Shown here piece by piece: positions 1,478 through 59,108 of a stretch of DNA of 64,000 nucleotides. Numbering within the stretch: the stretch's first letter is position 1; each line of letters begins with the position of its first letter. The notes beneath the pieces were generated by a model. The model ran no database searches and was not told where the DNA came from. It was given only the letters and a program-made list of their open reading frames with translations. This DNA comes from Polytrichum commune (lineage: Eukaryota > Streptophyta > Polytrichopsida > Polytrichales > Polytrichaceae), in NCBI GenBank assembly GCA_950295325.1, contig OX485804.1, positions 42,780,001-42,844,000 on the forward strand, in the 5' to 3' direction. The translations under genes and the position numbers were made by a program.

Positions 1478-1489
1478 GTTAAGAATGGA
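1478..1489. repeat. Target-site duplication of the full-length LINE, 3' side
   Basis: GTTAAGAATGGA here is identical over 12/12 bases to 13455-13466. It immediately follows the TATC-type microsatellite tail of the minus-strand LINE, as expected for target-primed reverse transcription. Confidence 0.85.
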
Positions 1490-1979
1490 TAGATAGATAG
1501 ATAGAAACTCCGGTCCCTTTTAGGGGCCGGCGTGAATGGAGTGTCCGTTCGTAATGCCAACAACCCGATGCCCACAGGACATGGGGAAGCTGGGACAAAA
1601 CTACTCTCCTCTTTCGAGGATGGACACTATAGTAACCGAGAAACAAATAACGTGGGCCGATCATGGCCCACGGCGGTGCATGCCTTTTAGGTATAATTAG
1701 TGTTTTTGTTATGAGAGTGAACGCCAAGTCATGATTCCTCGGTTGGTTGTGGGAGGATGTTTGAGTTAAGACGTTCCGGGTTCGATTTCAGTCGAGTCCG
1801 TATGATCGTCTAAAATGTAACGCGTGACTTGGTGCTGCAAGTGAGTAAAAAACAGGAATTTGTACCAACCAACCGGCACCAATCCCTCATTCTGAGTTGT
1901 AAATAGATACTAAATATTATATAAGTTTTTTTTTTTAAAAATAAAATAAAAAATAAAAAATAAAAAAATTGGGTGGGTT
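1490..1979 (-). other. LINE 3' UTR with microsatellite tail
   Basis: In minus orientation, sequence 1643-1503 aligns with 15190-15332 downstream of the truncated copy. Shared landmarks are ACTATAGTGTC, CTCGAAAG, CATTCACG and a terminal GTTTCT, so this is the family's 3' UTR. After GTTTCT comes (ATCT/TATC)n at 1502-1490. This copy's UTR is about 230 bp longer than that of the truncated copy; the extra sequence is probably an insertion (next entry). Confidence 0.75.
1725..1965 (+). mobile_element. Probable tRNA-derived SINE inserted in the LINE 3' UTR
   Basis: The segment is absent from the truncated LINE copy's 3' UTR. On the plus strand it has a box-A-like TCGGTTGGTTG near 1738 and a box-B-like GGTTCGATTTC near 1779, about 41 bp apart. 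It ends in a T-run and A-rich tail (1926-1965). That is the plan of a tRNA-derived SINE. No target duplication was identified, so the exact ends are approximate. Confidence 0.4.
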
Positions 1980-4900
1980 TTATGGAGGGTCTAAGTTTTG
2001 GGGGAGCGGTTGGTGGTTTTCAATTCTCCTCTTATGGAGGAGGATGGACATGGCATATTGTATTGCAATGGTATTAATGTTTTTAAAGGTATTTTTGATG
2101 GTAACCAGGGGTATTTTGAGATTTTCTTCTAGTATTTTCATAGATGGGATGTGGGCCGTAGCTCGGGCCCCAGCTGTGATGACAATAAGTGGTTCGATTT
2201 TCCATCCTCTGGAAGCAATACTATCAATCAAAGGTTTGTATTTGTTGTTTTTTGTTTCTATTGTTTCTGGGGAAAATCTGTCGTTACAATATGTGAATTC
2301 AATAAATTGTATGGTGAGGTTAGGGTCAATGTCAATGGGAGGGTCATTTTGATATGGTAATCCTTTAACGCAGAGTATATCAGGTCGAAATCTTGCGTTG
2401 CAATGACATCTTTGTGTGTTACATGTACAGGGGAGTAGCCAATTGGGGACTGTATTTTCTTGGGGGTTATTATTGAAGGTACCGGCATTCATGAGAGTAA
2501 AACATCGGGATTTTTCGGACGAGATTAGAAGCTTCCTAATTTCTCCGACTGCTTTGTTATGTCTTTTAATTCGTAGTGAGTGTATATGTTGTTGGTTGCA
2601 TTTCAGTAGAACATGTAGCCAAGTGTCTGGATCGTTTGAATTGCATATAGGGCATGTGATAGAGGGGTACCTCTGGTGACCGAAGAACATTTGTTTTCTA
2701 GCATTACCCATGTATGTTCCTGTACGGAATTTAATAAGGCATGATTTTTGTTTGTCTGTGATTAAGGGATTTGTCCAGAATTCGTTGGACAGTTCTTTGT
2801 CAATGTCTCTATTTTCTGTCCATTTACACGTGTTGGGGGTTTGTGTGGCCATGATTGCTATATTGGTTTCCCTATCATATTTTTTAATTTGTTTTTCTAA
2901 GAATCTTACTGGGCCTTTGTCTGGGACGTCTGCCATCGAGGCCCAGACGTCCTTTTGGTAATAGTACGGGATGGCGTGGGCATGTTCGTATGGGTGGATG
3001 GCAATTCTGTGTTCTAATTCTAACCCGGCTTTTGCTAGTTTATCCGCTTTTTCATTACCGTCAATGTTGACGTGTGCTCTGACTTTGTATAGTGTGATTG
3101 GCTGTGTACGGTCTTGGAGGATTTTTACCATGGAGTTGAGTGTGGTTTGGTCGGGGTGACTATTGTGGAGAGTGGGGTGTTTAATTTGTGTATTGAGTAG
3201 GTATAATACGTTTAGACTGTCTGTGAATATGTATGCGGGTTCATTAGGGAATTTTGTATTGATGATTCTTAGTGTTTTGTGTATAGCCATCATTTCTGCA
3301 CGTAGTATGTTTTGATGCCCATGGAGTCTTTTGGCGATATTTAAGCCTTTGGGGCTATAGATACCGTATCCAGCTCTTTCTCTTCTCCATACCCCAGGGG
3401 CAATTTCTTTGGGTTTTATAAAGGATCCGTCCGTGTAGTAGCTAAATTGGGGGTGGAATTTTAGCGGTAAGTTAGTTTGGTAGTTTGGAAGTTGTGGGGT
3501 GGGGATATTATTGTGTAGGGGTGTGTTTGGGTAGTTTGATTTAGCCCATTTTTTACTAGGGTTAACGGTGGTGTTTAGAGGGGTGGGTGGTGCAGTTTGT
3601 GTGTGACTTTGTAGTATTTGGAGGTTATTTGCTGTGTCGCTTATTAATTTCATTTGTTCGTAGGTGCCTATGTTATTGTTTTGGTGATGGATACAAAATA
3701 TTTGTATGGTAGATGGTTCTTTTCTTGTGGTATTGAGCTCGGAGGGTATTGTGGGTTCCTCATACGTGATCGTATCAGCGGCGAAATGGGCAATGACGTG
3801 TGTGTCTGGGAATGGGCCTGTGTGTGGGTTGGAGTTTTGGTACCAATTAGTATCCGGAGATATAAGTATAGTGATTGTATATGGATCATTTTGGGCCGCT
3901 ATGCGCGCCCAGTGAATAGCTTGTTGTAGGTCTGTTGTATTATGAGGGTGTGCGTAACCGAGTCCTTGCCATTTATGGTCAAACGCTTTACCTAGGGATC
4001 CAAATATTATGTCTCGCGAGAATGGTGAGTAGAATTGGGTGAATTGTGTGGGGCATGTAACTAGGGATGAAAAATATGAGTGGTTAATATTGAATGTTGT
4101 AATCAGGAGATCTAATATTTGGGTTGGTATTGTATATTGGGCTCGTTTGAGTGGGTCATTTTTTGGGATACGGTATTTGTACCTTTGGTATAACCAAACA
4201 ATTTCAGTTTCGAACGATTGGGTAGATGGTTCTAGACCGTGTGTGTTGTTTTTTGCCAATTGGAATTGTTTCCATAGCCATGTTAGTCTAGCTTTCGGGA
4301 TGGTAATGAGGTGTCGGCCATTGTCTTCGTATATGTGAGCGACATCGAATTGTGTTTGGATGGTATCAGAGTTTGTTTCGATGTCGTTTTCTGGGTTGCA
4401 TTCATTAATAGAGATATGTGCTAGTGGAATTATTGTGGTTGGTGTGACGTATCTTGTGTCTCTATGTTGTTCTGTGGAGAAGTAGGCATTAATTATGTTT
4501 GAAAAAACTTTGTGTTGTCTTTCTTTGTAGTAATGAATAAGTAGGTCTGTGTTGTGATTACATGTGTTGGCTTCACAGTAGGGGTATAGGTCCCTTTGAG
4601 TTCGCCATTTGTTATATGTGTTGTTATTTGTTGTAGTCCATTGACATAAGTACGACGTGACTGTTCTTTTTATTCCGTTATGGTTATTGGATTGTTTTTG
4701 TTTATGATCGATTATTTTGTGTATGGGGAATTGTCGGGGGTCTTTAAGCATGTTGTTGGGAGGAGGGGGTAGAGGGGGGATGGGGAGGTTAGGGGGGTGT
4801 ACGGGGGCGGTTGGTGGGTGTGGTAGGATATTGTGGTGTCTTATTATATATTTATTTTTTAGGGATCTTAGTGGATGGTGTTGTTGGCATGGTAGGGGAC

Positions 4901-7900
4901 ATTGATTTCCAGGAGGGTGGCAAAATAATTGATTAGCTATGTTAAGTGCACTTTTGATAAGTTTAGAAGGAGTGGAGTGGTAGATTTTGAATTCGTCCGG
5001 GTTCATTAGAGTGGTACCATTAGGCATGGTAATTTGGTCTAGTGTGATTATATTATGTACAAGTAGTTTGTGTAGTAATTTAAGTGAGGTGTTGGAATTT
5101 AGGCCATGAAACATTTGTGCTTCCTGCATCCATGCAGTTTCAAGTGGGGATGGGGTTAGTAGGAAATTGTTTATTGTACTTTTTAGGTGGACTCCGGCTT
5201 TATGTTTGAGCAAGAATAATGTTCTAGTGATGGGTGATCTAACACAGTGGTGGTATTTAATGCGGGTGATTTCCTTAGAGCCCCCATATTTGGCGAGTAT
5301 GAATTGAAGTAGACCAACATATATTTTCCCAATTCTACCTTTATCATTGAGTGCGTTTTGTAGTTGTTCTCCAATGCATCTTAAATAGGCATTTTGTAGT
5401 GAGAATGCTTCGATTCCGAATAGATTGTGTGGGAGTTGTGTAGCGATGTTAGATGTGCATTTGGGTATTCCGCATATCGTTTTGTGAAGTGCTATGATTT
5501 TTTTATCGAGTTTTTTGATAGCTGGTATGGAGTGTGGCACTGCGTAGAAGCTGTATGCTATTCCAGCACGTATGACTGTATCTGCCATGTTTATTTTTTG
5601 TTTCATAGTAGCTGGGCATGTTACAAGGGCTTGACACTGTTTTATTACTTTAGCTGTAGTGGTATTTATTTGTGTTTTCCATTTGAGTGATGGTGCAAGA
5701 TTTATTCCTAGATACGTGTATGGTTCATGTTGGTTTAAGACTGGTATAGGTTGGTTTCTGTAGTTGATATTGGTAGATTGGATTAGGGCTTTAAAGGTTG
5801 TGGGGTGAAGTTTGGATTTGTTTGGGCATCCAGTTATTGCGCATTTGGGTATTCCAAGATCCATTCCTGCCCATTCGCAGAATTTGTCTAGTTTGTTGAG
5901 TTGTGTTTGTAGTGTCTCTAGTTTATTGGCGATTGCTGCTAGGTCATCTGCATATGCTGCTGATGAGATTGTAATTTTAGATGTACCAAAAGTGTATCCA
6001 TTATTCCCTTGTTGTAGCCATCTGAGGAGGGGTTCTAGGAATATGATAAATAGATATGGGCTAAGGGTATCACCTTGTATTGTACCTCTTTGAATGGGGA
6101 TTGGTAAGGTTTTACCGAAGTGTTCACCAGTGAATATTGTTGAGGATTGTGAATATATGTTTCCTATGAGATTTATGGAGTCAGTGGGATATCCCAGATA
6201 TTTCATTATGGCTAAAAGTCTGGCGTGATCAATGGAGCCGAAGGCGTTTTTGAAGTCAATGTAAAGAATATATATATCTTGGTTCGTGAGTCTTGCGTCT
6301 TCAAGCGCTGCGATTAATAATTGGATTTGCTTAGAAGTGCTTCTCTCTGCTCTAAACCCTTCTTGATTATCGTGTAATATTTGGTATTTTTCTCCATACG
6401 CTGATAGGATAGAAGTTAATGTACTCGTGTAGAATTTATATATGGTGTTAGCTAGTGCAATAGGTCTATGGTTTGTTAGTTGTGATGGGTTACCTTTTTT
6501 GTATAGTAAAACTGTTAGACTGGTTTTCCATGATGCAGGGATTTGTTTTTGTTTATAACAATGTTTAAAAAATATGAAGAGTAATTTATGGAAGCGTGGA
6601 GGCATGTTTTTTAGAATTGAATTGGGTATTTTGTCTGGGCCTGGGGCTTTGTTATTACTTAGGTTTTTAAGACAAAAGTCGTATAATTCTTGGTCAAAAT
6701 ACGTGTGTAGAGGAGTTTGGGGTTCTCCTCGTTTGTCAATGATATATCCGTCTAAGTCATGCCATGGATATTGCCGGACTCCACATGTGCAGTGTAATGG
6801 GTGTGTATTTTGATATTGGCATGTGGGAACTGTAGGACGGTTACTGATGGATTGTTGCGTGTATATTTCTGCTGCGATGTCTTCTGGGTTAGTTAATATA
6901 TTGTTTTGTCTATCAATGATGGAGTCCAGGGGTGAGGTTTCAGTGTTCTTGAAGACTTTTCGATTTATCTTTTTGGGGCTTTTTTCATACATTTGACGGT
7001 ATTTTGATACGGCCTTTAGAATGCAGTCTTTGGTGTATTTTATGGTGATTTTCCTGGCTTCTTTATTTGCATTTTTTGCGATGGTTGCTATGGCATCAAT
7101 CCATTCAGTAGGAGGTGCCGTTGTAACAGGTGGATGTGGGATGTTTGTGTGTTGGTGGTTTCGTATATCGTTTAGGATGGGGTGTGCTTGCCAGAGTGGA
7201 TCGTGTTGTGCAATGTATATGGTTTTCCTGATGAGGTGATATGTGTTGAGGTGTCTTTTCCATTTTCTCGCAAGTTTGCGTGGCAAAAACCCACCTTGTT
7301 GTGATGTTCTGTTCGTAAGGTTGGGTAGTGGGTCTGCTTTACAGGTTTCTTCAATCGTTTCTGAAATTTTGTATACAATGTGGTCGAATGTCGTACAGGC
7401 TTCCGCCCATTGATCCGGGCTTAAGTGTTGGTGGTTTTCGAGTAGGGTGGTAAGGGCTTTTATTTGTGCAGAGTTTTCTTCGAAGAATGTTATGTTGAAT
7501 TTTTCGATATTTTCTGGTGGTATTGGATTTAGTATTCTAGTTGGTGACGTGTTTGTGGGGGGTGGGGATCTGGCTATAAGGGTGTTGTGGGGGATATGTA
7601 GTACAACTGGATAATGGTCTGAGTTTAGATTCATGTTTGTGATTGTGGTAGAAATGAATTTGTTGTTGTCTGGTGAGTGAATGTAGAATCCATCTATTAG
7701 ACTTGTTGATGTGTAATTATAGCCTCCTTGTCTGGAGATGCTAGTGTTAGTTGGGATATATTCTAGGTTGAGTGATGCGGTGAAAATTTTCCATTGGTAA
7801 TCTTCTTCTTGTGGAGGGGTGTTAATGTTGTTATTTTGTCTGCCTCTAAGTGCGATATCTCGGTTAAAGTCCCCACATAATAAATACATGTGATTGGGGT

Positions 7901-9710
7901 GTATAGTGATTTCGTTAGTGATTTCGTTCTTAAGTTGTGGAATGAGGCATGTGTCTTCTAAGTGTGTAGGCATATACATGTGTATGATTAGCCAAGGTAT
8001 TAGTGGATGGTTGTTTATTTTAATTATTTGTAGGTATGGAGATATATTTACTGGCGTGGGAATTTTGGTGATATTCCCAGGGAATGCATATTTCTTGTGG
8101 ATAAGTGTGAGTAAGCCTCCTTTTCCAGGGGTATAGGGCATTCTTTGTTGTATGCATCTTGTGAGTGCATGTGTGTTGTTGAAAATCAGTTTAAATTCTG
8201 GAAATAGGTTTTGTATGTATTTTGTAGATTTATTTGCGGTTAGTTTGGTTTCTTGGATATGTATGATTGCTGTGTTGTTTAGCGAGTTGTTTATTAGGCT
8301 TTGTAGGTTTGGTAATGATGTGTTGAGTGATGACGCATTCCATGTTATTATGTTTGTTTCGTGCTCGGTGTCGGTGTTAATTCTTGGGGTTGGTGTGGGA
8401 GTAGCTGGGGGTGGGGGTGGGTGTGAATATTCGTTGATGCTTTCTAGGCATCGGAGTGCTTCGGTGATCAATTGATTTGGGAGGAAGGGAAATTTATTTT
8501 GAAGGGTGATTGGTGTTGGTGTAGTATCTTGGTTGTGGATAAATTCATATATCTCTGTGTGTATTGAATTTTTTGGGTATATTATATCTTGATTGTTTTC
8601 TACAAAAGTTGTGTAGGGGTGAGGTGTTGATATATGCCTTTCGGGGGGGTTGGTGAGGTTGGCCAGTCTGATAATCAGTGTGTTCGTCCATATGTTATTA
8701 AAGTGATAGTTTTGGGGTTGGGCTAGTATGTTATTGCATGTGTCTATTGAGGGGTGGATGGTGATGATTAGAGCGTATAGCATATGGGTTAGTGGTGATT
8801 GCCTTTGTGTTTGGATATATTGATGTAGATGCGGGTAGGTGGTTATTGCTTGAGGGTGTAGTGGGTGTGTGTTTTTTAGTATGGGGGTAAATGTGTTTGC
8901 TATGTGTTGGTATTCAGGTTGTAGTTTTATAGTGTTTGGAATGAAGTAGATGTTGGCTCTTTTTTTGTGTGTAGCAGGGTGTGTATGTAGGATGTTAGGC
9001 ATTGGTCCGGGGTTGGGTTCTATGTCCCCGCATTTTAGCAATTCTAGTTTGTTAATAAAGTAGTATCCGTGGGAATGGAGTGTTTTTGGATTTTTCATGT
9101 GTGTTTTTAGATATATTATGATTGTGAACTTGGTTGTAGTAAAGAGGTTAGGTATAGCGTGTATGATGTTTTCTATTTGTTTGGGTGAGAAGTGTGAGTT
9201 TATATTTTTTATAGATTTTTGGCTTGTTATTGAGTTAGGTCTCCAGTTATTTATGAAGTGGTATATGTTATTATTTGTGTGGCGAGGCCGGTAGGCCGAG
9301 GCCATTGTATCTTTTGGGTGAGGTTGGTATTTTGAATGAGGGTTTAATAGGTGTTTGAAATAGGGTTTGTGATGGTGTTTGATGTTGAGGTGAGGTTTAT
9401 TTAGGGCGAGTAGTTTATATTTACTTCTTGTAAATAGATTAGGTAAGGCAATTATTGTTTTTTGTGTAGTTTTTGGGAGGTAGTGTATAGGTTTAGTATG
9501 TTGGTGGGTAGGCTTTGTGATTGTGTTAATGATGGGGTTGAGGGAGTTGTAATGTATATATCTTGTTAGTTTTATTTTGTGGTGAGGCCGGTAGGCCGAT
9601 GCCGTATTGTGTACTTTGTTGTATTGGTTAGGATATTGTTGTATTGTGAGTAAATAGATTTGTTTTTGTGAGGTGTTGGGGGGGTTTTCTTTGTGAATTT
9701 TAGTATTCAT
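1980..9710 (-). CDS. LINE ORF2 polyprotein: 2A-like site, APE, RT, RNase H, CCHC, restriction-like endonuclease
   Basis: 2,576 aa, uninterrupted. Approximate order: residues 36-236 are two related ~100-aa repeats (each opening ASAYRP), the second ending in the 2A-like motif GDIEPNPGP with the predicted skip between G235 and P236. An APE endonuclease follows at 450-705 (ITWN, QETKL, CGDFNRD, SDHYPV). Reverse transcriptase spans ~1010-1360 (APGPDKIPN, IDFKNAFGSID, QGDTLSPYLF, AYADDLA). A long spacer at 1400-2080 contains a Pro-rich stretch and an unassigned block around 1790-1960. RNase H lies at ~2090-2240 (YTDGS, RAEMMAI, FTDSLN, GNEKADKLAK). A CX2CX9HX4C finger lies at ~2350, and a restriction-like endonuclease at ~2430-2540 (RPDIL, then IEFTY, then KYKPLI). 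Ordinary LINE ORF2s run 1,000-1,300 aa. First in-frame Met used; start otherwise unproven. Confidence 0.9.
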   Translation of the reverse strand: MNTKIHKENPPNTSQKQIYLLTIQQYPNQYNKVHNTASAYRPHHKIKLTRYIHYNSLNPIINTITKPTHQHTKPIHYLPKTTQKTIIALPNLFTRSKYKLLALNKPHLNIKHHHKPYFKHLLNPHSKYQPHPKDTMASAYRPRHTNNNIYHFINNWRPNSITSQKSIKNINSHFSPKQIENIIHAIPNLFTTTKFTIIIYLKTHMKNPKTLHSHGYYFINKLELLKCGDIEPNPGPMPNILHTHPATHKKRANIYFIPNTIKLQPEYQHIANTFTPILKNTHPLHPQAITTYPHLHQYIQTQRQSPLTHMLYALIITIHPSIDTCNNILAQPQNYHFNNIWTNTLIIRLANLTNPPERHISTPHPYTTFVENNQDIIYPKNSIHTEIYEFIHNQDTTPTPITLQNKFPFLPNQLITEALRCLESINEYSHPPPPPATPTPTPRINTDTEHETNIITWNASSLNTSLPNLQSLINNSLNNTAIIHIQETKLTANKSTKYIQNLFPEFKLIFNNTHALTRCIQQRMPYTPGKGGLLTLIHKKYAFPGNITKIPTPVNISPYLQIIKINNHPLIPWLIIHMYMPTHLEDTCLIPQLKNEITNEITIHPNHMYLLCGDFNRDIALRGRQNNNINTPPQEEDYQWKIFTASLNLEYIPTNTSISRQGGYNYTSTSLIDGFYIHSPDNNKFISTTITNMNLNSDHYPVVLHIPHNTLIARSPPPTNTSPTRILNPIPPENIEKFNITFFEENSAQIKALTTLLENHQHLSPDQWAEACTTFDHIVYKISETIEETCKADPLPNLTNRTSQQGGFLPRKLARKWKRHLNTYHLIRKTIYIAQHDPLWQAHPILNDIRNHQHTNIPHPPVTTAPPTEWIDAIATIAKNANKEARKITIKYTKDCILKAVSKYRQMYEKSPKKINRKVFKNTETSPLDSIIDRQNNILTNPEDIAAEIYTQQSISNRPTVPTCQYQNTHPLHCTCGVRQYPWHDLDGYIIDKRGEPQTPLHTYFDQELYDFCLKNLSNNKAPGPDKIPNSILKNMPPRFHKLLFIFFKHCYKQKQIPASWKTSLTVLLYKKGNPSQLTNHRPIALANTIYKFYTSTLTSILSAYGEKYQILHDNQEGFRAERSTSKQIQLLIAALEDARLTNQDIYILYIDFKNAFGSIDHARLLAIMKYLGYPTDSINLIGNIYSQSSTIFTGEHFGKTLPIPIQRGTIQGDTLSPYLFIIFLEPLLRWLQQGNNGYTFGTSKITISSAAYADDLAAIANKLETLQTQLNKLDKFCEWAGMDLGIPKCAITGCPNKSKLHPTTFKALIQSTNINYRNQPIPVLNQHEPYTYLGINLAPSLKWKTQINTTTAKVIKQCQALVTCPATMKQKINMADTVIRAGIAYSFYAVPHSIPAIKKLDKKIIALHKTICGIPKCTSNIATQLPHNLFGIEAFSLQNAYLRCIGEQLQNALNDKGRIGKIYVGLLQFILAKYGGSKEITRIKYHHCVRSPITRTLFLLKHKAGVHLKSTINNFLLTPSPLETAWMQEAQMFHGLNSNTSLKLLHKLLVHNIITLDQITMPNGTTLMNPDEFKIYHSTPSKLIKSALNIANQLFCHPPGNQCPLPCQQHHPLRSLKNKYIIRHHNILPHPPTAPVHPPNLPIPPLPPPPNNMLKDPRQFPIHKIIDHKQKQSNNHNGIKRTVTSYLCQWTTTNNNTYNKWRTQRDLYPYCEANTCNHNTDLLIHYYKERQHKVFSNIINAYFSTEQHRDTRYVTPTTIIPLAHISINECNPENDIETNSDTIQTQFDVAHIYEDNGRHLITIPKARLTWLWKQFQLAKNNTHGLEPSTQSFETEIVWLYQRYKYRIPKNDPLKRAQYTIPTQILDLLITTFNINHSYFSSLVTCPTQFTQFYSPFSRDIIFGSLGKAFDHKWQGLGYAHPHNTTDLQQAIHWARIAAQNDPYTITILISPDTNWYQNSNPHTGPFPDTHVIAHFAADTITYEEPTIPSELNTTRKEPSTIQIFCIHHQNNNIGTYEQMKLISDTANNLQILQSHTQTAPPTPLNTTVNPSKKWAKSNYPNTPLHNNIPTPQLPNYQTNLPLKFHPQFSYYTDGSFIKPKEIAPGVWRRERAGYGIYSPKGLNIAKRLHGHQNILRAEMMAIHKTLRIINTKFPNEPAYIFTDSLNVLYLLNTQIKHPTLHNSHPDQTTLNSMVKILQDRTQPITLYKVRAHVNIDGNEKADKLAKAGLELEHRIAIHPYEHAHAIPYYYQKDVWASMADVPDKGPVRFLEKQIKKYDRETNIAIMATQTPNTCKWTENRDIDKELSNEFWTNPLITDKQKSCLIKFRTGTYMGNARKQMFFGHQRYPSITCPICNSNDPDTWLHVLLKCNQQHIHSLRIKRHNKAVGEIRKLLISSEKSRCFTLMNAGTFNNNPQENTVPNWLLPCTCNTQRCHCNARFRPDILCVKGLPYQNDPPIDIDPNLTIQFIEFTYCNDRFSPETIETKNNKYKPLIDSIASRGWKIEPLIVITAGARATAHIPSMKILEENLKIPLVTIKNTFKNINTIAIQYAMSILLHKRRIENHQPLPQNLDPP
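9003..9029 (-). other. 2A-like ribosome-skipping motif in LINE ORF2
   Basis: The codons spell GDIEPNPGP, matching the D-(V/I)-E-x-N-P-G-P consensus exactly. The predicted skip lies between Gly235 (9006-9008) and Pro236 (9003-9005). Skipping would release a ~235-aa leader from a ~2,341-aa enzymatic protein that begins Pro-Met. 2A-like sequences near the N terminus are known from trypanosome L1Tc and several animal LINEs; activity here is untested. Confidence 0.8.
9010..9606 (-). repeat. ~300-bp tandem duplication at the 5' end of ORF2
   Basis: The words GAGGCCGGTAGGCCGA at about 9284 and 9584 are 300 bp apart and start two diverged repeats. At protein level each repeat runs ASAYRP, then HY/HF-x-PK, then (A)IPNLFT or ALPNLFT, then a YF. 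The second copy ends in the 2A-like motif. Confidence 0.65.
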
Positions 9711-9832
9711 GAATACTATAGGTAGGGTTTTATTTTTAATATATATTAATAATTTAATTATGTTTTTGTTTTTAGTATATAAATATACTATAAGTAATTT
9801 ATAATTGTACGCCGCCGGGATGTTTGTCGAAA

Positions 9833-12034
9833 TTAGTTTGTCAAGTCCATATTGTTTTCAATTTCCGATATGTCCGGATGAGCCGCTTCTATAGCATCCA
9901 AGGTAATGTTCATTTGCCTTTGAAGGAGTTGTATTTGAAGCTTGGAATTCTTGTTTGACTCCGCTTGCACATGGTCGGCATAAACCTTAGCCTCTTGCAC
10001 AATCTCATCTTTAAGGTTCACCATTTCCTTTCGTATTTCATCCGTCCCCTTTTTTACCGCTGCTTCTACCATTTTGTTGAGATCTTTGTTGGTGATGTTT
10101 TGGTGCGGTCCATTCTCCAGAGCTTGGATGGTGTTTGCAAGTGCGGTGTTCACGTCTGAAAATCCAAGTCTAACTAGCTCTTCTTTACTAGGTGCATTTA
10201 TCCCGTCTAGACTTTTTGGATGGGGGGTAAATTCAACATATTTACCAAATATTTTTTCATTTTTCTTAACAAATTTCTTGTAGACAAACGAGTTGAGGCA
10301 TTGGACATTGCATGAGCCCGTATGCTTCCCGTTCTCAAGTCTAAAGTAAAAACCGAGAACATTTAGTTCTCCCATGCATTTTCGGATTCCTTCTTCGATT
10401 TGCATGGTTGTTTTTACCTTATTGAGGTTACGGGCGATTAGAATGAGTGCATTCTTTCGGGCTTTATCATCTTCTGAGAGTTTTTCATTACTTGCAAAGT
10501 TTACATCTACTATTTCATTAAAAAATGAAAGTTTGAGTGCTTTAATTCTTTTGGCTTCCTCTGGAGAGGGTGCTTTAATCCAAGCAAACTCTGCATCCAC
10601 CGATTTTTGCACATTCGTTATTTCAAAGTCAAGGCCCCGTCGAAATCCATCCCCAACTATTTCTACAAACAAATCATACCATTCTTTACCCTTGATTGAC
10701 GGGGTTGTGATTTTGACGGAGAGCATGGATGCAATTGCAATGGTATCAAAGGATTTACACACTTTGCCTATAGCATGTGTAAATTGGCCAAGCTTGAGGA
10801 TGAAAGGTCTCAATCCACAGAGAAGGCCATATCCATCCATTTCAGGATTTTTAAGGTGGAGTTTAATAATTCCACTCCATCTTTTGGTCCCATGAAAACA
10901 AAGGACAGCTATGGGCTCTCCTAGAACTTCCCCGACCTCTATCCTCATTGTTTTTAGTCTATCCTTTGTTAAGTTGAGTATCACATCTCTATCCAATTCT
11001 ATTCTTTCAATTTCAAAATGGATAGATATGTGATAGTCCAAAGCAAATCCATGGTCACCCACTTCCACATCCGAAGGAATCTGGGTGAGATTGTAGTGCA
11101 TTCCCTCCTTACCATCCGTTCGTATAGAAGGCCACTCTTCTTGGGCAACGAACGGAAAGGAGGGAGATGACTCCACCATTTCATGTGCTTCAGACTCACA
11201 CATACATTTTTTGACTAACTCAGTGAAAGAAGGTGTTTGAATGAGAGGCATGTTAGCAAATTTTGCAATTGTGTTCATAGCTTGAAAACCTAGCCAATAG
11301 GGGGGGCGTGTTCTCTCAGTGGGTGCTATTCCTTTAACCTTCTTTTGACTTGACAATACCACAGCAAGCACTGGACGTTTTCCACTTGTAGAATCTATAT
11401 TTTCATTTTCAAACAACTTACGGGATGATGAGGTTGGAGTGATGGTTGCCATTCTGATATAAGCAAAGCAAACAAACGTTTTGTACTTTAGTTTTGAATG
11501 AGGTATACTTCTTATTTTCTTTCCTCTAATTCCTTTCCACAAATTAAGTTGTGGGCCTCCTAGGAATTGAGAGTGAAAGAAGAAGTGATTTGCACGTTCT
11601 AATATCATATGAGTACTAGTATGAGTACAACTTGCATTCATCCTATGATAACACCTTTTCCTATTCATATGAATCTTCATATTAGTATTTACAAATTGGT
11701 TGTAAGTGCTTTTATGTAGATTATGATTTGTCACAACTCTAACATTCCATTCATCTCCTAAGCATTTGAGGCAAATATAACTAAAAGCACAAGCATCTAC
11801 CGTTACTACCACGGATCCATTATTTCTAATGGAACATTCATTTATGTTATGAACATTAAGGTTGTTATACCATACCTTTGGATTTATGATGTTCTTATAT
11901 GTGTTTTTAAAGCAAGAGTTTGTAAGGCATTCCCATGTGGTGTGAGAGTTGACACTATGAGAGTATATCCAGTATGGTGTGGCTAGTACTAGCCACATAA
12001 TGATAACAAGGTAGGTTGCATATGCAACCTTCAT
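9833..12034 (-). CDS. LINE ORF1 protein with RRM-like and coiled-coil regions
   Basis: 733 codons, ending 122 bp before ORF2. About residues 526-606 look like the RRM-type fold common in LINE ORF1 proteins (ALILIARNL, then VLGFYFRLE, then GSCNVQCLN, then KYVEFTPHP). Residues ~645-715 form a charged coiled coil (KKGTDEIRKEMVNLKDE). ORF1 proteins normally bind element RNA as multimers. The N-terminal 194 residues are odd: a hydrophobic, signal-peptide-like start (YATYLVIIMWLVLATPYW) followed by a Cys-rich segment with CX4C and CX5CX2C pairs. A second start, Met195 (ATG at 11450-11452, MATITPTSS), would give a more conventional 539-aa ORF1. Assignment rests on position inside the TSD-bounded element and on the C-terminal features; the family was not identified by search. 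Confidence 0.7.
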   Translation of the reverse strand: MKVAYATYLVIIMWLVLATPYWIYSHSVNSHTTWECLTNSCFKNTYKNIINPKVWYNNLNVHNINECSIRNNGSVVVTVDACAFSYICLKCLGDEWNVRVVTNHNLHKSTYNQFVNTNMKIHMNRKRCYHRMNASCTHTSTHMILERANHFFFHSQFLGGPQLNLWKGIRGKKIRSIPHSKLKYKTFVCFAYIRMATITPTSSSRKLFENENIDSTSGKRPVLAVVLSSQKKVKGIAPTERTRPPYWLGFQAMNTIAKFANMPLIQTPSFTELVKKCMCESEAHEMVESSPSFPFVAQEEWPSIRTDGKEGMHYNLTQIPSDVEVGDHGFALDYHISIHFEIERIELDRDVILNLTKDRLKTMRIEVGEVLGEPIAVLCFHGTKRWSGIIKLHLKNPEMDGYGLLCGLRPFILKLGQFTHAIGKVCKSFDTIAIASMLSVKITTPSIKGKEWYDLFVEIVGDGFRRGLDFEITNVQKSVDAEFAWIKAPSPEEAKRIKALKLSFFNEIVDVNFASNEKLSEDDKARKNALILIARNLNKVKTTMQIEEGIRKCMGELNVLGFYFRLENGKHTGSCNVQCLNSFVYKKFVKKNEKIFGKYVEFTPHPKSLDGINAPSKEELVRLGFSDVNTALANTIQALENGPHQNITNKDLNKMVEAAVKKGTDEIRKEMVNLKDEIVQEAKVYADHVQAESNKNSKLQIQLLQRQMNITLDAIEAAHPDISEIENNMDLTN

Positions 12035-12617
12035 TTTGCTTACTATCCTAACAAACCTATCAATGCTATGATGTGTCTAAGACTATGTGTGTGCCTATGT
12101 GCAAATAATGAGAAAACAAATTAACGTGTAAACTTACCAAGCGGATGAAGGGCAGCAAAACGACAGTCAATGACAGTTCCAGCAGCAACACTTCGCCTTC
12201 AATCTCCTTGATGTCCTAGCACCTTCTTTTCTTCCCTTGGGTAGATTTGTGTCGCACAATGGACCTCTAGCAGCTCCTCTTCAGCAGCTCCTCAGAATTC
12301 CAAGCCGTTTGCTCCAGTTTGGACAGCAACTTCGCACACCAGCTAGCTTACTTGATGTTGGAGTGCGTGTTTGATGTAATAGCTGTGATTACGCTCCAAT
12401 CATGTCTGCAGCCTTACAATTGCTCCAACCTCTCCTCAGGCTTTGGCAGCTACTGTTGCTCTCCGCTGGATCCTCTTCCTCTCCTAGCACCCTTTGGCAG
12501 GCTTCTGTAACTTCGGCCCAGACTCTGTTGTCTGCGCTCCGTACCTCCTGTTGTCTGTGTTCCGGCAGCTTTGATATTGGCAGCTTCCTTATATCATTAG
12601 CTTCCCTCTTTCCACAC

Positions 12618-12800
12618 CTTGGCAACTTCCTTTAATTCGGCAACTTCCTTCAATTCAGTAGCTACCTTCAATTCGGCAGCTTCCCTTAGTTCGGCAGCTT
12701 CCCACAATTCGGCAGCTTCCCACAATTCGGCAGCTTCCCTCAGTTCGGCAACTTCCCTCAATTCCGTAGCTTCCTTCAGTTTGGCAACTTCTCTTGGATT
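12618..12800. repeat. 18-bp minisatellite in the LINE 5' UTR
   Basis: About ten imperfect copies of AATTCGGCAGCTTCCCTC with substitutions such as AACTTCC and GTAGC. The 18-bp period leaves reading frames open and creates a spurious Ser/Ala-rich ORF. Confidence 0.85.
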
Positions 12801-13251
12801 CGGTAGGACTACAGGCTTTGCTTACACTATCTGGGTGGTGGCACCGAATGCAGCTTTCTTCAAGGCCCTGCGGTCTTGCTTATAGTGTCGGGTTCTTGTC
12901 TGTAGTCCTACTGGGACTACTTTGTATTTCTATGGATCTAGTTATGGGATTGGTCTACCGAAGATCATGAAATGGGTGCAGTGTATCAGATCTACTTCTA
13001 TGTCTCTTTTTGTTTTTCTGTGGACTTGCTCTCAGGTAGCTAAGAAGTTATGGATCTAGGCCATGTAACTGATGCGGCATCACTTCTTGATGCTTCGTGA
13101 GATTTTCGGTGTTCGGTGTAGTTTCTTCGGTGACAGATCTGGGGGGCTCCCTTCGGTGATGCGGTCCGGGACGGCGGCGTGTGTTGGTGGTAGGAGGTCG
13201 GGTGGTGTGTGCGGTGGCGGTGGCGGCGGCGACAGCAGCAGCAGCTTCGAC

Positions 13252-13454
13252 TTCGGTACCTGATTGTTGGGGATCTGGCTGTGGGGGCGTTCCGGCAGCG
13301 GGAGTCTTCAGCTTGTGTTTGTTGGGGGAGTCAGATCTTTGGTGTGAGCAGCATCGGCACTTCACGTTCGTACTTGGTTGCAGAGGATCTGCCTGTGGGG
13401 GCGTTCCGGCAGCGGGGAGTCTTCAGCTTGTGTTGTTGGGGGAGTCAGATCTTC
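13252..13454. repeat. ~113-bp tandem duplication at the extreme 5' end of the LINE
   Basis: The block GGATCTGGCTGTGGGGG...GGGAGTCAGATCT (about 13270-13338) recurs at about 13384-13452, roughly 113 bp later. The second copy abuts the 12-bp target-site duplication. This resembles the tandem 5' monomers of other LINEs. Confidence 0.75.
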
Positions 13455-13466
13455 GTTAAGAATGGA
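13455..13466. repeat. Target-site duplication of the full-length LINE, 5' side
   Basis: GTTAAGAATGGA, identical to 1478-1489. It marks the 5' end of the minus-strand LINE. Confidence 0.85.
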
Positions 13467-14483: not shown

Positions 14484-15082
14484 CTCTACACGTAAAAAGA
14501 CATAACAAAGCAGTATGGGAAATAAGGAAATTACTAATCTCATCTGAAAAATCCCGATGCTACACCCTTATGAACGTTGGCACCTTTAATGACAACCCCC
14601 AAGAAAACACCGTCCCTAACTGGTTATTACCCTGCACATGTGGAACCCAAAGATGCCACTGCAACTCCCGTTTTAAACCCGACATTCTTTGCGTTAAAGG
14701 ACTACCATATCAAAATACACCCCCCACAAATGTAGACCAAACAATTACCATACAATTCATTGAATTCACATACTGTAATGATAGATTTTCACCAGCAACT
14801 CTAGAAGCCAAAACTAACAAATACCAACCACTGATAGAAAGCATTGCTGCCCTAGGTTGGAAAACCGACCCGCTTATTGTTATTACAGCAGGCGCCAGAG
14901 CCGCAACACACATCCCATCAATGAAACTACTGGAAGACAAATTTAAAATACCTATGCCATCCATCCGAAATACCTTCAAAAACATTAATACCATTGCGAT
15001 ACAATACGCCATGTCCATCTTGCTCCACAAAAGAAGACTTGAAAATCACCAACCTCTACCCCAAATACAAGACCCCCCCTAA
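14484..15082 (+). pseudogene. C-terminal fragment of LINE ORF2 (restriction-like endonuclease)
   Basis: The frame runs from a residue pair matching about position 2,374 of the full-length ORF2 (KRHNKAV...EIRKLLISSEKSRC) to the same terminal motif (NHQPLPQ...DPP). It keeps the whole restriction-like endonuclease: a Cys cluster CTCGTQRCHC, RFKPDIL, FIEFTYCNDR and KYQPLI. It has no start of its own; Met at 14570 is simply internal. The frame is still open, so insertion is either recent or the source lineage was under constraint. Confidence 0.85.
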
Positions 15083-15336
15083 ACTCCCTAGATCAAACTA
15101 AACAAAACAAACCCTATATTAAACCATCCCTTGGGTACAGTCTCCCTTTGTGCCACTAACCAATATTGGTTACTGGCTCTTATTTGTTACTGGTTACTTG
15201 TGACTATAGTGTCTACTCTCGAAAGGGGGAAGTAGTTCCTCACTTCTACTCCTATGTCCCGTGGACATAGGTTTAGGGGTGGAACGAACAGACACTTCAT
15301 TCACGTCGGTCCCCCCGAGGATCGAAGTTTCTTCTC
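14484..15336 (+). mobile_element. 5'-truncated relative of the dual-endonuclease LINE
   Basis: 853 bp on the plus strand, bounded by the 12-bp duplication TAGGCCATACAC. It retains only the end of ORF2 and a 3' UTR whose homology to the full-length copy ends at GTTTCT (15327-15332). It is a different subfamily from the full-length element, with roughly four fifths of residues identical. It shows that 5' truncation, typical of target-primed reverse transcription, occurs in this family. Confidence 0.88.
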
Positions 15337-18871: not shown

Positions 18872-21800
18872 ATGGCAACCATGGCTGTGCAGGCAGGGGG
18901 AGCGGTGACAATGCAACACGCTCGCTCGGAAAGGAATGCACTAACCGCATCCTCATCATCTGCTTCTTGTTCATCTTCCTCGACCATGTGTGCAATGTCC
19001 CTGCCACGTTCCTCTGCATTCTTCACTGGGGACAACAGCAACTGCGCATTTCTGACCTCCTCCTCGTCCTCTGGTGATTCTGGTAAACGTTCAACTTTCT
19101 CTGCCATCCACAGTTGCCCTGCTGCAATTTGGCCTGTGAGCCTTAACAACATTATAAAGCCCACTAGTGACCGTCAGAGCCAGGATTTCCATTTAGTCCA
19201 AAGGACTGGGCAGTACAGTCTGCACCTGGGATTATCAAAATATAAATTGGTCCGAGTGCAATCGCCCTCGGAAACTGCACATAGAGACTGAATGAGGAGG
19301 CTTGGAGTTGAGTCAGGCTTTGACCTCACATACTTCCCTCTCCGGTCTTCCCTTCTTTAACTAACTATCCATCTGATTTAATGTGACAGTACAATTGGTA
19401 TGCCGTGTTACTCAGAGTGGTCTTCATGACTAATGTAGCAGCAAGAGTCATATGACACCCTCTCTAGTTGCCACCCTATGAGTCGATGATGAATAGTGTG
19501 GGCCACGCTAAACCAGATGTTCAGTGTAGTTTCCATGGCCTTTGCTGGGTATTATCAATTTTGTTCAATCCGTGATTACCTTCTTGGCTGCCACGACAGA
19601 GCTAAATCGACTTTGATTAGAGCATGGCATAAACCATGGACTCAGAGGGTGAAATGTGACGCTTAAGATAGGTACATCATATTGATGTTCGTTTTGGTTC
19701 TGAAAATTTGCAGAGAGAAGGAGAGGTTTGAAAATTGTGGCAACGAACGCAGCAGCGCAAGCAGCAGCTGTCTCAGGAAGCACCCCGGTTCGAGCTACCA
19801 GCATCCTTGTAGTGGGTGCTACAGGAACTCTTGGCAGGCAGGTGGTTCGGCGGGCACTCGACGAAGGCTACGACGTGCGGTGCCTCGTCCGCCCTCGTCC
19901 CACTCCTGCCGATTTTCTCCGGGATTGGGGAGCCACCATTGTCAATGTACGATCTCGTGAGCTCTCGAAGGAAGTAAACTTTTGGATTTTGTGTTTCGTG
20001 TTTCAGGGTTTGGTCTTATCTCTTGGTTTCCTTGTGTCGAAATTGAGGTCTTAGTACACATGCTATAGAACAATGTGCTTGAGGTCTTCCCATTACTTCT
20101 GGAGACTAGTAGCAGAAACTCGTCAAGACAAGGTTCCACTGTCGCAAAACCGTTGAGGCCAGGGGGATTGTTTTGGAAGGTGGCCTCTTCCGTGCAGAAG
20201 ATTGTTGTGGATGGTCCCTGATCAAATGGCTTGCCACTGTTTGGCTATTGCCGCATGCATAATTTTGTCTTCTATTTTATTAAATTTCTAAATGCTTTCT
20301 TTTGATTGCTTTAGATTGGGTATGTACCAACTCTAAAAGCCTCGGATTAACCATCTCTCTTGATTCTTATTTTATGGTTTACTGGTTACCTTTACCTGTA
20401 AGTGTTGTGTGAATCCGGATACTTACAAGGATATTTCATTGTGGGCGTGTGGGGTAATCTCTCAAAAGGGGGACTTGAGCAAGCCTGAGACACTCCCAGC
20501 TGCGCTTGTCGGAATTCACACTGTGATAGATTGTGCAACAGGACGACCTGAGGAGCCCATCAGAACAGTGAGTCTCTTCAGATTCTATGATTGCCCTTAG
20601 AGCAGTGCATTGGAGATTCCAACGTCAGGATATCACTGGCATCAACATATTTTGATTATCGGCTCTGAAAGTTCCATTGAGCCAATCCAGGTTAAGTTGA
20701 GTATGATGTGGTTACTGAACTGAAGAATGAATGTCTCTTCTCAGCAAGGATCTGATGGCACTGCAGGTAGACTGGGATGGCAAAGTGGCCTTGATACAGT
20801 GCGCTCAAGCCATGGGCATTCAACGCTTTGTTTTCTTTTCTATCCACAACTGCGAGAAGCATCCTGAGGTGCCACTTATGGAAATCAAACGCTGCACTGA
20901 GAAGTACATTGCCGACTCTGGTTTGAATTACACCATCATCCGTCTTTGCGGTTTCATGCAGGTATTCTTCCCATTTCTGCTTTGGAAGCTCAAACCAAGA
21001 ATACCTAAGCTCTGGCATATGTGAAATTGGGTGTCCCGGTACCAGGACCCAATTGTGTAACTAATTTCTTCCAATTATCGTGCAGGGTTTGATAGGACAA
21101 TATGCTGTGCCAGTTCTGGAGGACAAGTCAGTTTGGGGGACTGATGCGCCCACCAGAATTGCTTACATGGATACCCAGGTCTTTATTCTCCTCTCCCATC
21201 TTTCACCACTATGGTGGGATGCTTTTTTTTTTGACTTGAACTGTATCATCCACATTGTAAGCTTATAAAATTGTGAATAACTTGGACAGATTAGGCCGTG
21301 AGAAGAATGATCAATCTGGTTGCTTGGATTGGTGGAAACATTTCCTACTCTTTCTCTTTGTTGAGTACAAGTCAGTTTGTGGGATTGATGCACCCACCAA
21401 AATTACTTATATGGATACTCAGGTCTTTGGTGTACACTCCCATCTCTCACCACTACGAAAGCTGGTGAGATGCTAGTAAAGTTTACTTAACTATGTCATC
21501 CACATTGTAAGTCAATAAAATTGTGAATAAGTTAGACAGATTGGGGCATAGGAACAGTTTCATCCATCTGGTTCCATAACCGGTGTCAACATCGCCTGCT
21601 CTTCTTCGTTATGTAGTGACAGGTTTAGTATCTTTGTGGTCGTGAATTTTCAACTCAAGTCTGTCTGCATGCAGGATGTAGCTCGCCTTACCTTGACAGC
21701 ACTTCGAAATGAGAAAGCTGAAAGGAAAGCTATGACATTGGCTGGGCCCCGTGCTTGGACTACTCAAGAGGTAACTTGTTTTTCCAAGGACCTTGCATTG

Positions 21801-36100: not shown

Positions 36101-38605
36101 AACATGTCATAAATGACAGTGTGTCAAAGAGGTTGTGTCAGAACCCCCTACTAGTGAACATTCAGTTCCCACCACGTCATCCCTGAGTGTCAGTCAATCT
36201 TGCAAAAAATTGACAGTTTAATTTTGTTTCGAATCTGAAAAACTGCACACCCGTGATATCATTGCAGGTATTCCTACAAGGTGGGCCACAAGTTGAAGAG
36301 TACAGGAGCTTATGTGTGGGGCGACGTGAACACTTTCAAGTCCAATCCCGGCGTTGGTGAAGAGTCTAAGCAAAGTGTGGTAATCTTCGGAGACATGGGA
36401 AAGGTAAGTATCAGCAGCATTCCAATCCTCTCAACTCCCTAAACAATTGATTGTTACATTAACAGGTGAAGGTAATAATTTCTCAATTCCTTAATTTAGT
36501 TATCTTGCTGCATTAACAGCACGAGCGCGATGGATCTACCGAGTACACCGACACCCAACCCGGTGCTTTGAACACCACAGACACCTTGGTGAAGGATCTT
36601 GCCAACATCGACCTTGTTTTCCACAACGGAGATATCGTCTACGCAAATGGATACATCGCACAATGGGATCAGTTTGTAGAGCAGGTTTCCAACATCTCCA
36701 AGCAGGTGCCTTACATGGTTTCTAGGTAATCCATCGCAACCCTGCTTCTCGCAGCTGCCCGGCTAGTACTTAATCTCTCCACATAACCCCGTACTTACAT
36801 ACAGCTCCACTCGGCACTAATGATGAAAGATGCACTGCAATCCGAAGGTTCTAACAATCTTTTCACTCCATGTTATGATCACAACAGCGGTAACCACGAG
36901 CGTGACTGGCCTGGCACCAGCTCTTTCTATCAAAACAAGGATTCTGGCGGTGAATGCGGTGGACCCACTGAGACCACTTACTACATGCCCACTAAGAACA
37001 AGGACAAGTTCTGGTGAGTCCTGCTGCTATAATTTTTGGCAAAACGTTTTGGAGCTGCTTCATATTATGACTTCTAAGTTCTTTTTTAAGTTTCTGTGAC
37101 GATAATGTGACAATAAACACTTAGGTTGTGTGGATGGTGACCCATGCTTTTACTTAATTGTACACCTTGTCTAGTTCAGTATCTACCCCCTCTCTCAGGC
37201 ATATTGCACTGACTCTTTCTGAATTAAAAAACCATTGATATAATAAATGCGTCAGAAGTGATCGAGAGCACCTGTTGTCAAGGGGAGAGTTTCCACACCA
37301 TGCCACTCCTAATTCGGTAGAACAGAAGGCATATTGTGAGAATACCAATCATGCCTCATGAAATATAAATAATGTCAAGGCCTAGGTGTTGTGTACCAGG
37401 TATTGATAAGCTTGGTGGTTATGCAGGTATGAAGTGAACTATGGTATGTTCCACTTCTGTGTGGGCGACTCGGAGGAAGACTGGAGGAAGGGGTCCGAGC
37501 AGTGGCTATGGCTTGACAAGTGTCTGGGAGGCGCGGACCGCCGGTCACAGCCATGGTCGATCTTCATGGCCCATCGGGTGCTTGGATACTCATCTGCTGA
37601 CGAGTACCAAGTCCTGGGCACGTTCGGCGAACCCATGGGACGTGATAATCTGCAAGAATTGTGGCAGAAGCACAAGGTGGACGTTGCCTTCTTTGGCCAT
37701 GTGCACAATTACGAGCGAACTTGCCCCGTCTATGAGGTAATTTACCTATGTTTGAACGATAATCCTCCCACAATAATAGTAATATTTTTCCCACTGTTGT
37801 TATTATCTTATCTTCACTGAATGCGCAATTATCCTTCGATCATGCAAAGAATGATGGAGAGTTTGAGTGTCAACATCATCTGTTTTGGAATGCGATTTAT
37901 AATATATTACAGGAGCCTGAGGGGCACAAATTACCACCCATTCATAAGGGTTAATCTTAAGTGGTGTAGTGGGTGCTCTCCCTACCCAAGCATATTTGAG
38001 AGTACATAATATTGGGTGAAAATATTTTTGGCAAGCCTGACTTCTGATTGAATCTTGGTATATTCATGAGAGAAGGCTTTGTGTCCGAAAATGGGCAACA
38101 ACGAGGTCTCGACTAATGACAGTATGCTCACCATTCATGCATATTGTAATCAAGGACCTTGTTTCTAAAAAACTTGATATTCTTGAAGGTTATACAAAAT
38201 CTTAGAAAGATAACGACGCCCTTAGTACACATGATATGACTCCTAAAAACTAAAAAGCTGTATACGAATGTGTAGAGCAACTGCGTGCCCCTCACCAGCA
38301 GCTTTACCAACGCGTACGCGGGCCACTTCAATGGCACCATCAACATCGTGGCCGGAGGGGCAGGCAGGGAGATTGCAGGCTATGGCGCCACCAACACCAC
38401 CTGGTCCATCTTCAAGGACATAAATTACGGATACACCAAGCTCATCGCCATCGACCACCAGCACTTGTCGTTCGAGTACAGACACAGCTCCGACAACGCT
38501 TTGGTGGACAGCTTCACCATTACCCGCGCTTACCACGATGTGCTTGGCTGCGACACCAGCTCCTCCCCTGAGTGCATGCCCACCACCACTGCCGATCTCG
38601 CCTAA
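33162..38605 (+). CDS. Secreted purple acid phosphatase (PAP1/PAP27-type)
   Basis: Twelve exons join in frame: 33162-33383, 34205-34299, 34629-34707, 34891-35010, 35300-35392, 35587-35719, 35848-35929, 36268-36403, 36520-36725, 36888-37013, 37427-37736 and 38276-38605, giving 643 aa, normal for this large plant PAP class. The N terminus is a signal peptide (MARSVQMVLVALALILIL...). It is followed by the Fn3-like N-terminal domain (DWIGVFSPANF, then KFRLINQR, then TVTWTSGY) and the metallophosphoesterase domain. All five metal-ligand blocks are visible: GDMG, GDIVY, GNHE, the His of FMAHR, and GHVH. The enzyme hydrolyses phosphate or pyrophosphate esters at a dinuclear metal centre, in wall or apoplast. 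Met33162 gives a six-codon longer start than a second Met at 33186. A CACTA-like MITE sits in the intron after exon 7. Confidence 0.93.
33395..34020 (+). repeat. ~340-bp tandem duplication in PAP intron 1
   Basis: AATCTTTTCTCAACCAAGTC...CATGATCTTGGCA...TTCGATACACA...CAGAAAATTCCAGT...TTAGAATTCTACA...AAAGA.TCGATTATA (33,408-33,640) recurs with changes at 33,750-33,970. It is intronic with no coding role apparent. Confidence 0.7.
35971..36156. mobile_element. CACTA-like MITE in a PAP intron
   Basis: 186 bp beginning CACTAGTAG and ending CTACTAGTG. The interior (TCAAATGTGTGCGA, AAAATGTGATGTTTT, GTCAAAG) is shared with 38,796-38,974. CACTAGTAG termini are typical of CMC/CACTA-derived small elements. 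The 3-bp duplication is not exact. Confidence 0.65.
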
Positions 38606-59000: not shown

Positions 59001-59108
59001 GTCAGCCATAGTAGCCTCCCCGACAATGTCTAAGTCATCATCAGATGCAGATGGCCAAGTGGCCATGTCATCAGATGACCAATCCCCAATTTCACTAAAC
59101 CCATCCAT
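56052..59108 (-). pseudogene. DUF7869-type transposon-associated protein, copy B (broken)
   Basis: Read from ATG 59108 to TAA at 56052. It is co-linear with copy A. The N terminus is acidic (SDDMATWPSASDDDLDIV). Then come GICRNTHPQDC, CCVHRCCQLFPRDK, VCCKAWYTIHGVSKADFYR, CEKLKRLRD, HDKMDHAKTASPCF, HGHGDAKFAHYALDLYPAD, LDNCAKDNKSR, LLVGHTHDDIDASFGRWS, and a C-terminal GWDTNPNFRWK with FAKDNLARI. It is much less damaged than A: one frameshift near 58,190 (within KQQGKQRP/RQATAT) and a TAG at 58045-58047. A GT-AG intron (57539-57665, 127 bp) interrupts VTG|MIAHG; copy A has no gap there. Function is unknown; the conserved DNC and GHTHDDI acidic/His residues could be catalytic. Arrays 2 and 3 lie on its 3' and 5' sides. 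Confidence 0.78.
57539..57665 (-). other. Intron of copy B absent from copy A
   Basis: Donor TTACAG|GTGAAC, acceptor GCATTACAG|GAATG. Removing it restores VTG-MIAHGHGD, matching the uninterrupted VTG-MMAHGHGD of copy A. Confidence 0.75.

Follow-up and report, generated by a model that had tools for sequence, protein, structure and literature searches.

The window analysed here, a stretch of 64,000 nucleotides of contig OX485804.1, carries on its reverse strand a 12-kb retrotransposon lacking long terminal repeats (non-LTR), which is very probably an autonomous Dualen-like long interspersed nuclear element (LINE) of a moss. Both of its open reading frames (ORFs) are open (Table 1), and the second encodes, in this order, an apurinic/apyrimidinic endonuclease (APE), a reverse transcriptase (RT), a domain resembling PCIF1, an RNase H, a CCHC finger, and a C-terminal restriction-like endonuclease (RLE). 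An initial annotation, made from the letters of the sequence, had proposed a Dualen-like lineage in a land plant with both endonucleases in the same protein, and the APE, AYADD, finger, and RLE motifs that it quoted were all located in ORF2. It had overlooked the PCIF1-like domain and a 2A-like motif at amino acids (aa) 222-236.

Structure and boundaries of the element

The limits of the element are set by an exact direct repeat that abuts both ends, where the initial annotation had drawn them. A near-identical twin lies at C5:35125263-35137752 (99.5% identity over the 8,741 bp compared), which spans 12,490 bp and is flanked by 12-bp repeats of its own. Because the 5' end of this twin is about 0.5 kb longer, the window copy may be slightly 5'-truncated; its earlier description as intact thus stands for ORF1 and ORF2 and is not established for the 5' end. 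Target-site duplications of 11-12 bp were found in the window copy and in the C5 twin, i.e., in two of the 11 copies examined (the window and one of ten others). This low count weighs against our interpretation; for the nine remaining copies the search covered the fetched pieces, beyond which their 5' ends presumably lie. All 20 3' ends that were read (from the window and from the 19 copies ranking next among 40 listed) carry a CTAT-type repeat tail preceded by a GC-rich inverted repeat, and the flanks beyond are unrelated, the last two points as judged by eye. The family is inserted at unrelated sites. An R2-like specificity for a site in 28S ribosomal DNA (rDNA) was rejected, as no common flank was seen by eye at the 20 3' ends. 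Many other copies match the window copy only to about position 12164 or 12237 and diverge over the rest of its 5' region (12164-13454), a pattern that an exchange of 5' regions among subfamilies could have left.

No Pfam family scored above its cut-off on ORF1. A homologue of this ORF lies upstream of the divergent element L008, in L046 (39.6% identity over 371 aa, E = 1.6e-80). ORF1 and ORF2 overlap in locus L004 (ATGACTAG), and in the window they overlap by frame.

Table 1. Predicted features of the retrotransposon and of a related fragment nearby (window coordinates; aa, positions in ORF2; dN/dS, ratio of nonsynonymous to synonymous substitution rates; UTR, untranslated region).
Feature	Position	Strand	Basis or remark
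Non-LTR retrotransposon (12 kb)	1490-13454	-	Limits set by flanking direct repeat
Target-site duplication, 5' side of element (GTTAAGAATGGA)	13455-13466		12-bp exact match to 1478-1489
Target-site duplication, 3' side of element	1478-1489		Same 12-bp repeat
Two tandem copies of a ~114-bp unit, 5' end of element	13256-13453	-	Window repeat families D2, D4, D8
5' UTR of window copy, if ORF1 begins at the internal ATG (11452)	11453-13454	-	C5 twin about 0.5 kb longer at this end
ORF1	9833-12034	-	733 codons from first ATG; 539 from internal ATG at 11452
ORF2	1980-9710	-	Open, 2,576 codons
ORF2 leader (aa 1-215), poorly constrained	9066-9710	-	dN/dS 0.91 (aa 1-110), 0.52 (aa 111-215)
Putative 2A-like ribosome-skipping motif LELLKCGDIEPNPG/P (aa 222-236)	9003-9047	-	Pattern and dN/dS
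APE-type endonuclease domain (aa 451-705)	7596-8360	-	Pfam, profiles, alignment
RT (aa 991-1460)	5331-6740	-	AYADD at 5943-5957 (aa 1252)
PCIF1 methyltransferase-like domain (aa 1690-2010)	3681-4643	-	NPPF position reads HPHN, within 3939-3959
RNase H (aa 2085-2235)	3006-3458	-	Pfam RNase_H, 5e-13
CX2CX9HX4C finger (aa 2353-2371)	2598-2654	-	Motif
RLE domain (aa 2401-2576)	1983-2510	-	PD 2443-2444, E 2471, K 2487, KY 2490-2491
3' UTR; GC-rich inverted repeat (by eye), then (CTAT)n tail at 1490-1504	1490-1979	-	
Another C-terminal fragment of this LINE family, divergent and inversely oriented	14486-15083	+	78% over 598 nt

Two endonucleases in one protein

The APE motifs of the window ORF2 are TWNAS (aa 456), QETKL (486), CGDFNRD (612), and SDHYPV (697). 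Two Pfam APE families, Exo_endo_phos and Exo_endo_phos_2, stay under their cut-offs on the window copy (21.5 vs. 27.4 and 19.6 vs. 24.5, respectively), and both exceed them in two related copies (L008 and L050); positions 14-55 of the APE profile match bacterial exonuclease III (E = 9e-4). The residues N19, E48, D175, N177, D259, and H260 are invariant in 11 of 11 aligned rows, which represent both lineages of the family: lineage 1, to which the window copy belongs, and lineage 2, a second deep lineage presented below (residue numbers are those of alignment A7 for the APE and of alignment A5 for the RLE).

At the other end of the protein, the RLE motifs are FRPDIL (aa 2441), IEFTY (2470), and KYKPLI (2490), and the residues P144, D145, E172, K188, and K191 of the PD..E..K..KY signature are invariant in all ten rows, again from both lineages. 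A chance reading of these motifs is excluded by their conservation across the two lineages. The structure model of the domain shows a restriction-like fold (mean predicted local distance difference test, pLDDT, 65.1; predicted template modelling score, pTM, 0.62). The six best Foldseek matches of this model in the PDB are R2 retrotransposon structures (E = 1.4e-4 to 6e-3), and R2 also fills the top seven rows with VIA-align (Z 8.9-10.1), followed by bunyavirus endonucleases (Z up to 8.0). Two profile searches against the PDB speak against the assignment: profile A1 gave no significant match (one unrelated chain, E = 0.82), and neither did profile A5 (only R2Bm, E = 1.7). For this reason the call rests on the motifs and on a model of moderate confidence. 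By fold, the C-terminal domain matches those of R2 among the RLEs; an RLE had been proposed from the motifs at the outset.

A reverse transcriptase outside L1

The full RT and the RNase H of the initial annotation are both matched by Pfam (RVT_1 on the window ORF2, E = 2e-29; RNase_H in Table 1). When the RT profile was compared with the PDB, turtle R2 (117 bits) and finch R2 (109 bits) scored above human L1 (80 bits); Bombyx R2 (74 bits) ranks below human L1, a result that counts against our placement. In the RT trees, lineages 1 and 2 stand together (100/99), apart from R2 and L1, and human L1 and the moss L1s lie on one side of a branch that excludes the window family (100/98). The approximately unbiased test rejected a tree in which the family joins the moss L1s while human L1 and R2 stand apart from both (p-AU 0.0055). 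These trees are unrooted, have several long stems, and sample two R2 elements and, for L1, the human element and four from the moss, without Dualen, RTE, I, or CR1. On the strength of the trees, membership of L1 was excluded, in keeping with the initial proposal.

A search of genome contigs with an RT profile built from both lineages returned two relatives, 34-36% identical, on short contigs (L065 and L066) titled as Mollicutes and Clostridiales metagenome-assembled genomes (MAGs). The two form the sister RT clade of the moss family (100/99) in a tree from which L043, L019, L052, and L054 were omitted. L065 has an APE upstream of the RT (Pfam, 5e-12), and L066 has a weak PCIF1_WW match downstream of it (9e-6, under cut-off); no RLE was seen on either contig, and both stop short of its expected position. 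We regard these contigs as probably misbinned eukaryotic DNA. On L066 (1-4875) the RT is followed by a Cys/His-rich stretch that resembles a PHD finger by eye, with no Pfam PHD match, and then by the PCIF1-like domain. Four scans of viral contigs with RT or RLE queries found no relative, and a search of genome contigs with profile A3 yielded nothing useful.

The nature of the host was read from its plastid. Contig C8 (146,561 bp) carries rbcL, psaA, and psaB, and in an rbcL search the plastid falls among streptophytes. The best PDB matches of PsaA (1723.9 bits) and PsaB (1704.6 bits; about 12 differences in 734 positions, by eye) are entries that we take to be photosystem I of Physcomitrium patens. 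Entry 9lut scores 1698.0 bits against PsaA and, as the next protein in rank, 1667.2 bits against PsaB; another entry, presumably from an angiosperm, scores 1630.3 bits against PsaB. Because PsaA and PsaB match the Physcomitrium entries best, the host is, by these plastid proteins, a moss or a close bryophyte, and the land-plant origin first suggested for the element is thereby supported.

An abundant family under purifying selection

This moss genome holds the family in large numbers and in diverse forms. When the C-terminal 236 aa served as query, 5,455 candidates came up at first look, an approximate count. The 150 that were scored matched at 87-100% identity, and five of these 150 sit in frames at least 2,600 codons long. 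With PCIF1_WW there were 697 candidates, and all 150 of those scored exceeded the cut-off; this search also gave L008, a divergent element with a frame of 2,919 codons. A third search, with PF14529 (401 candidates, 150 scored), led to lineage 2, from which five loci were read.

Lineage 1 was sampled with tblastn at 17 further loci, 14 from the PCIF1_WW list together with L003, L004, and L005. The PCIF1-like domain, the RNase H, and the RLE were found at every one, the RT at 16, and the APE at 14; the order APE, RT, PCIF1-like, RNase H, and RLE holds in 14 of the 17. The gaps, which weigh against our interpretation, concern L016, L018, and L020, where the pieces read gave no APE match, and again L020, with no RT match, and L016, with only the RT end. 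In the 14 divergent loci the longer matches are 56-79% identical, and several have stops or frameshifts. Lineage 2 keeps the same domain order at all five loci, with identities to the window copy of 53-61% for the RT, 46-48% for the APE and likewise for the RLE, 42-46% for the RNase H, and 37-40% for the PCIF1-like domain; L052 and L054 have a stop within the RLE.

Between the window copy and L003, dN/dS is 0.084 for the APE, 0.065 for the RT, 0.084 for the PCIF1-like domain, 0.042 for the RNase H, and 0.091 for the RLE. All of ORF2 beyond aa 233 has values of 0.05-0.15 in this pair, save one linker at 0.36, and between two open subfamilies every enzyme lies at 0.04-0.11. Judged by these ratios, every enzyme of ORF2 is under purifying selection, and both endonucleases look preserved by it. 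L1 elements with long open frames (L042-L045) form a distinct family in the same genome, and zf-RVT matches occur in 141 of the 150 scored.

A 2A-like motif between leader and enzyme

The window motif reads GDIEPNPGP, which fits D[V/I]ExNPGP. The broader pattern D-x-x-x-NPGP occurs at the junction of leader and enzyme in five of five lineage-2 loci and in 15 of the 18 from lineage 1, a count that takes in the window; the three without it are L016, L018, and L020. The stretch aa 216-233, which takes in residues 1-12 of the 15-residue motif, has a dN/dS of 0.096. A nearly free leader thus ends in a conserved motif, which is followed by a conserved enzyme, and for this reason we infer that the motif is best read as a device freeing the enzyme from the leader. 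Several points tell against this. The canonical E, kept in nine of the 15 lineage-1 motifs, is replaced by K in three and by H in three; the motif of L051 is in a different frame from the enzyme; and NPGP, being written into the search pattern, is constant by construction.

Some leaders hold more than one such motif in a single frame: L015 (334-960) has three, with a stop between the first two, L019 (445-920) has two, and so has L052 (155-720); L012 has a degenerate upstream one. The arrangement in L015, L019, and L052 would fit the duplication of a module made up of leader and 2A.

A PCIF1-like domain without the catalytic motif

Pfam PCIF1_WW matches the window ORF2 at 5e-8 and other copies at up to 1e-12; it is above its cut-off on L008 (47.3 vs. 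31.1) and below it on L050 (26.9). PCIF1 entries are the sole PDB matches of the profile of this domain, and they are weak (E = 0.054 and 0.15). The NPPF catalytic motif is missing from the window copy and from the aligned loci. The tetrad at its position reads HP[HPY][NT] in lineage 1, where a pattern search matched 16 of 18 loci (all but L017 and L019), and [YFH]P[TK]D in all five rows of lineage 2. An active methyltransferase was rejected because the motif is missing, and on this sequence evidence the domain is most likely not a working PCIF1-type adenine methyltransferase. The structure model weighs against the assignment by its low confidence (pLDDT 38.7) and was not used. No report of PCIF1 in transposons was found in the openly licensed literature searched.

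Discussion

Several features link the moss family with Dualen/RandI as these elements appear in the passages compared, which represent the cited papers in part. First, a single Dualen/RandI element combines an APE with an endonuclease of the PD-(D/E)XK type (PMC3636483, PMC4640811), and the moss element has an N-terminal APE and a C-terminal RLE in the same ORF. Second, both have an RNase H (PMC4640811). Third, neither ends in poly(A), the RandI tails being (ATT)n or (CTATTT)n (PMC3747384). The moss tail differs from these, being (CTAT)n, and so does the host: Dualen/RandI are described from Chlamydomonas and relatives (PMC8226300) and from cryptophytes, Guillardia excepted (PMC12747079), and a table of 2015 gives them for green algae only (PMC4438587). 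The PCIF1-like domain and the 2A-like junction go unmentioned in the passages compared, though the original description may show one. As the trees were built without a named Dualen RT, we call the lineage Dualen-like on its domain architecture, its RNase H, and its microsatellite-like 3' tail, all of which support the initial proposal. No Dualen element in a land plant was found in the openly licensed literature searched, which does not show its absence from print.

Other known systems resemble the moss element in part. With R2 it shares an RT that is most similar, among PDB chains, to those of turtle and finch, and a CCHC finger followed by an RLE of the same fold. R2 is not known to carry an APE, an RNase H, or a PCIF1 domain. 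It is described as inserting specifically in rDNA, unlike the moss family with its unrelated sites. The plant L1s of the same genome also have an N-terminal APE followed by an RT (L042-L044, by eye), but the RT of the moss family forms a separate clade. The PCIF1-like domain is akin, by PCIF1_WW, to PCIF1 (CAPAM), the cap-adjacent adenosine methyltransferase, and differs from it at NPPF. Motifs of the 2A type in the ORFs of non-LTR retrotransposons have been described from trypanosome and sea urchin elements, in the form D[V/I]ExNPGP (PMC4981915); compared with what these passages report, the moss motif stands at the leader/enzyme junction of a dual-endonuclease element, and its E is often replaced.

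These parts could work together as follows. ORF1 would be translated first, and ORF2 would follow by re-initiation or a frameshift where the two overlap; the ribosome would skip at the 2A-like motif, and the large enzyme, starting with Pro-Met, would leave a disposable leader behind. This enzyme would recognise the 3' hairpin and CTAT-repeat end of the element RNA. One endonuclease would nick the target, cDNA synthesis would be primed on the nick, the RNase H would remove the RNA, and the other endonuclease would cut the second strand. Our guess is that the APE makes the first nick, which fits the absent site specificity, and that the RLE, with its CCHC finger, cuts the second strand or a branched junction. 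The PCIF1-derived domain, probably no longer a methyltransferase, may bind the element RNA, perhaps capped; binding of RNA or cap is again a guess. Taken as a whole, i.e., an ancient dual-endonuclease LINE clade reaching land plants, in which APE and RLE cut one strand each, the enzyme is released by 2A, and a dead PCIF1 domain taken from the cap-methylation machinery of the host ties the enzyme to its RNA, the scenario is a tentative one.

The family could also be a separate, non-Dualen clade that arose by an independent fusion of an APE LINE with an RLE element. Such an origin would be compatible with trees that hold no Dualen reference, with the long stem of the family RT (1.79, 1.74, and 1.01 changes per column in three trees), and with the 2A and PCIF1-like parts, neither of which is named for Dualen in the passages compared. 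However, APE with RLE, RNase H, and non-poly(A) repeat tails are all listed there for Dualen/RandI, and the APE of L065 and the weak PCIF1_WW match of L066, within a shared RT clade, make the arrangement look not restricted to mosses, so that we find an independent fusion somewhat unlikely. The position of Dualen, with both endonucleases, has itself served as an argument for an origin of APE LINEs in which the RLE was replaced (PMC4640811).

That the 2A-like motif carries no translational signal and merely reflects conservation of the protein is, in our judgement, unlikely. The replaced E in six of the 15 lineage-1 motifs and the out-of-frame motif of L051 would be expected in that case, but the motif marks the leader/enzyme junction in lineages 1 and 2 alike, just after a leader under little constraint, it recurs in the same frame in L015 (despite the stop), L019, and L052, and D[VI]xxNPGP appeared just once, over six frames, in 200 mononucleotide shuffles of the window. 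Quite unlikely, too, is that a single endonuclease matters, the second being carried along as a passenger or kept as a structural remnant. A lone endonuclease suffices for other LINEs, according to the passages compared, and the PCIF1-like domain shows that this very protein keeps a domain despite a lost catalytic motif; against this, both nucleases hold their catalytic residues invariant across about 46% identity, and their dN/dS is 0.08-0.11 between the window copy and L003. That the element is a plain L1 with a misread C-terminus is hardly credible: an APE and an RT are common to both, and plant L1s may also have an RNase H by the passages compared, but the RT is excluded from L1, the C-terminal model has the RLE fold, and the tail is not poly(A).

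Read as a Dualen-like LINE, this abundant moss family, with near-identical open copies in which both nucleases are constrained, makes the need for two endonucleases testable in land plants. The dual-endonuclease set-up, described in the passages compared mainly from green algae, is found here in a large moss family, where the division of labour between the nucleases can be tested; the 2A junction and the captured PCIF1-like domain are two more testable modules.

Other features of the window

Two related multi-frame coding regions on the reverse strand (45070-47729 and 56052-59138) share LLVGHTHDDI.ASFGRWS and look, by eye, like another transposon family or its remnants. A long tandem-repeat array (GRPTQTFWQDGFRLTT units) at 59523-60416 is open in several frames on both strands. 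On the forward strand, and by eye only, an exon at 19704-20054 resembles a plastid HCF244/NmrA-type protein, and another at 37410-37820 resembles a purple acid phosphatase.

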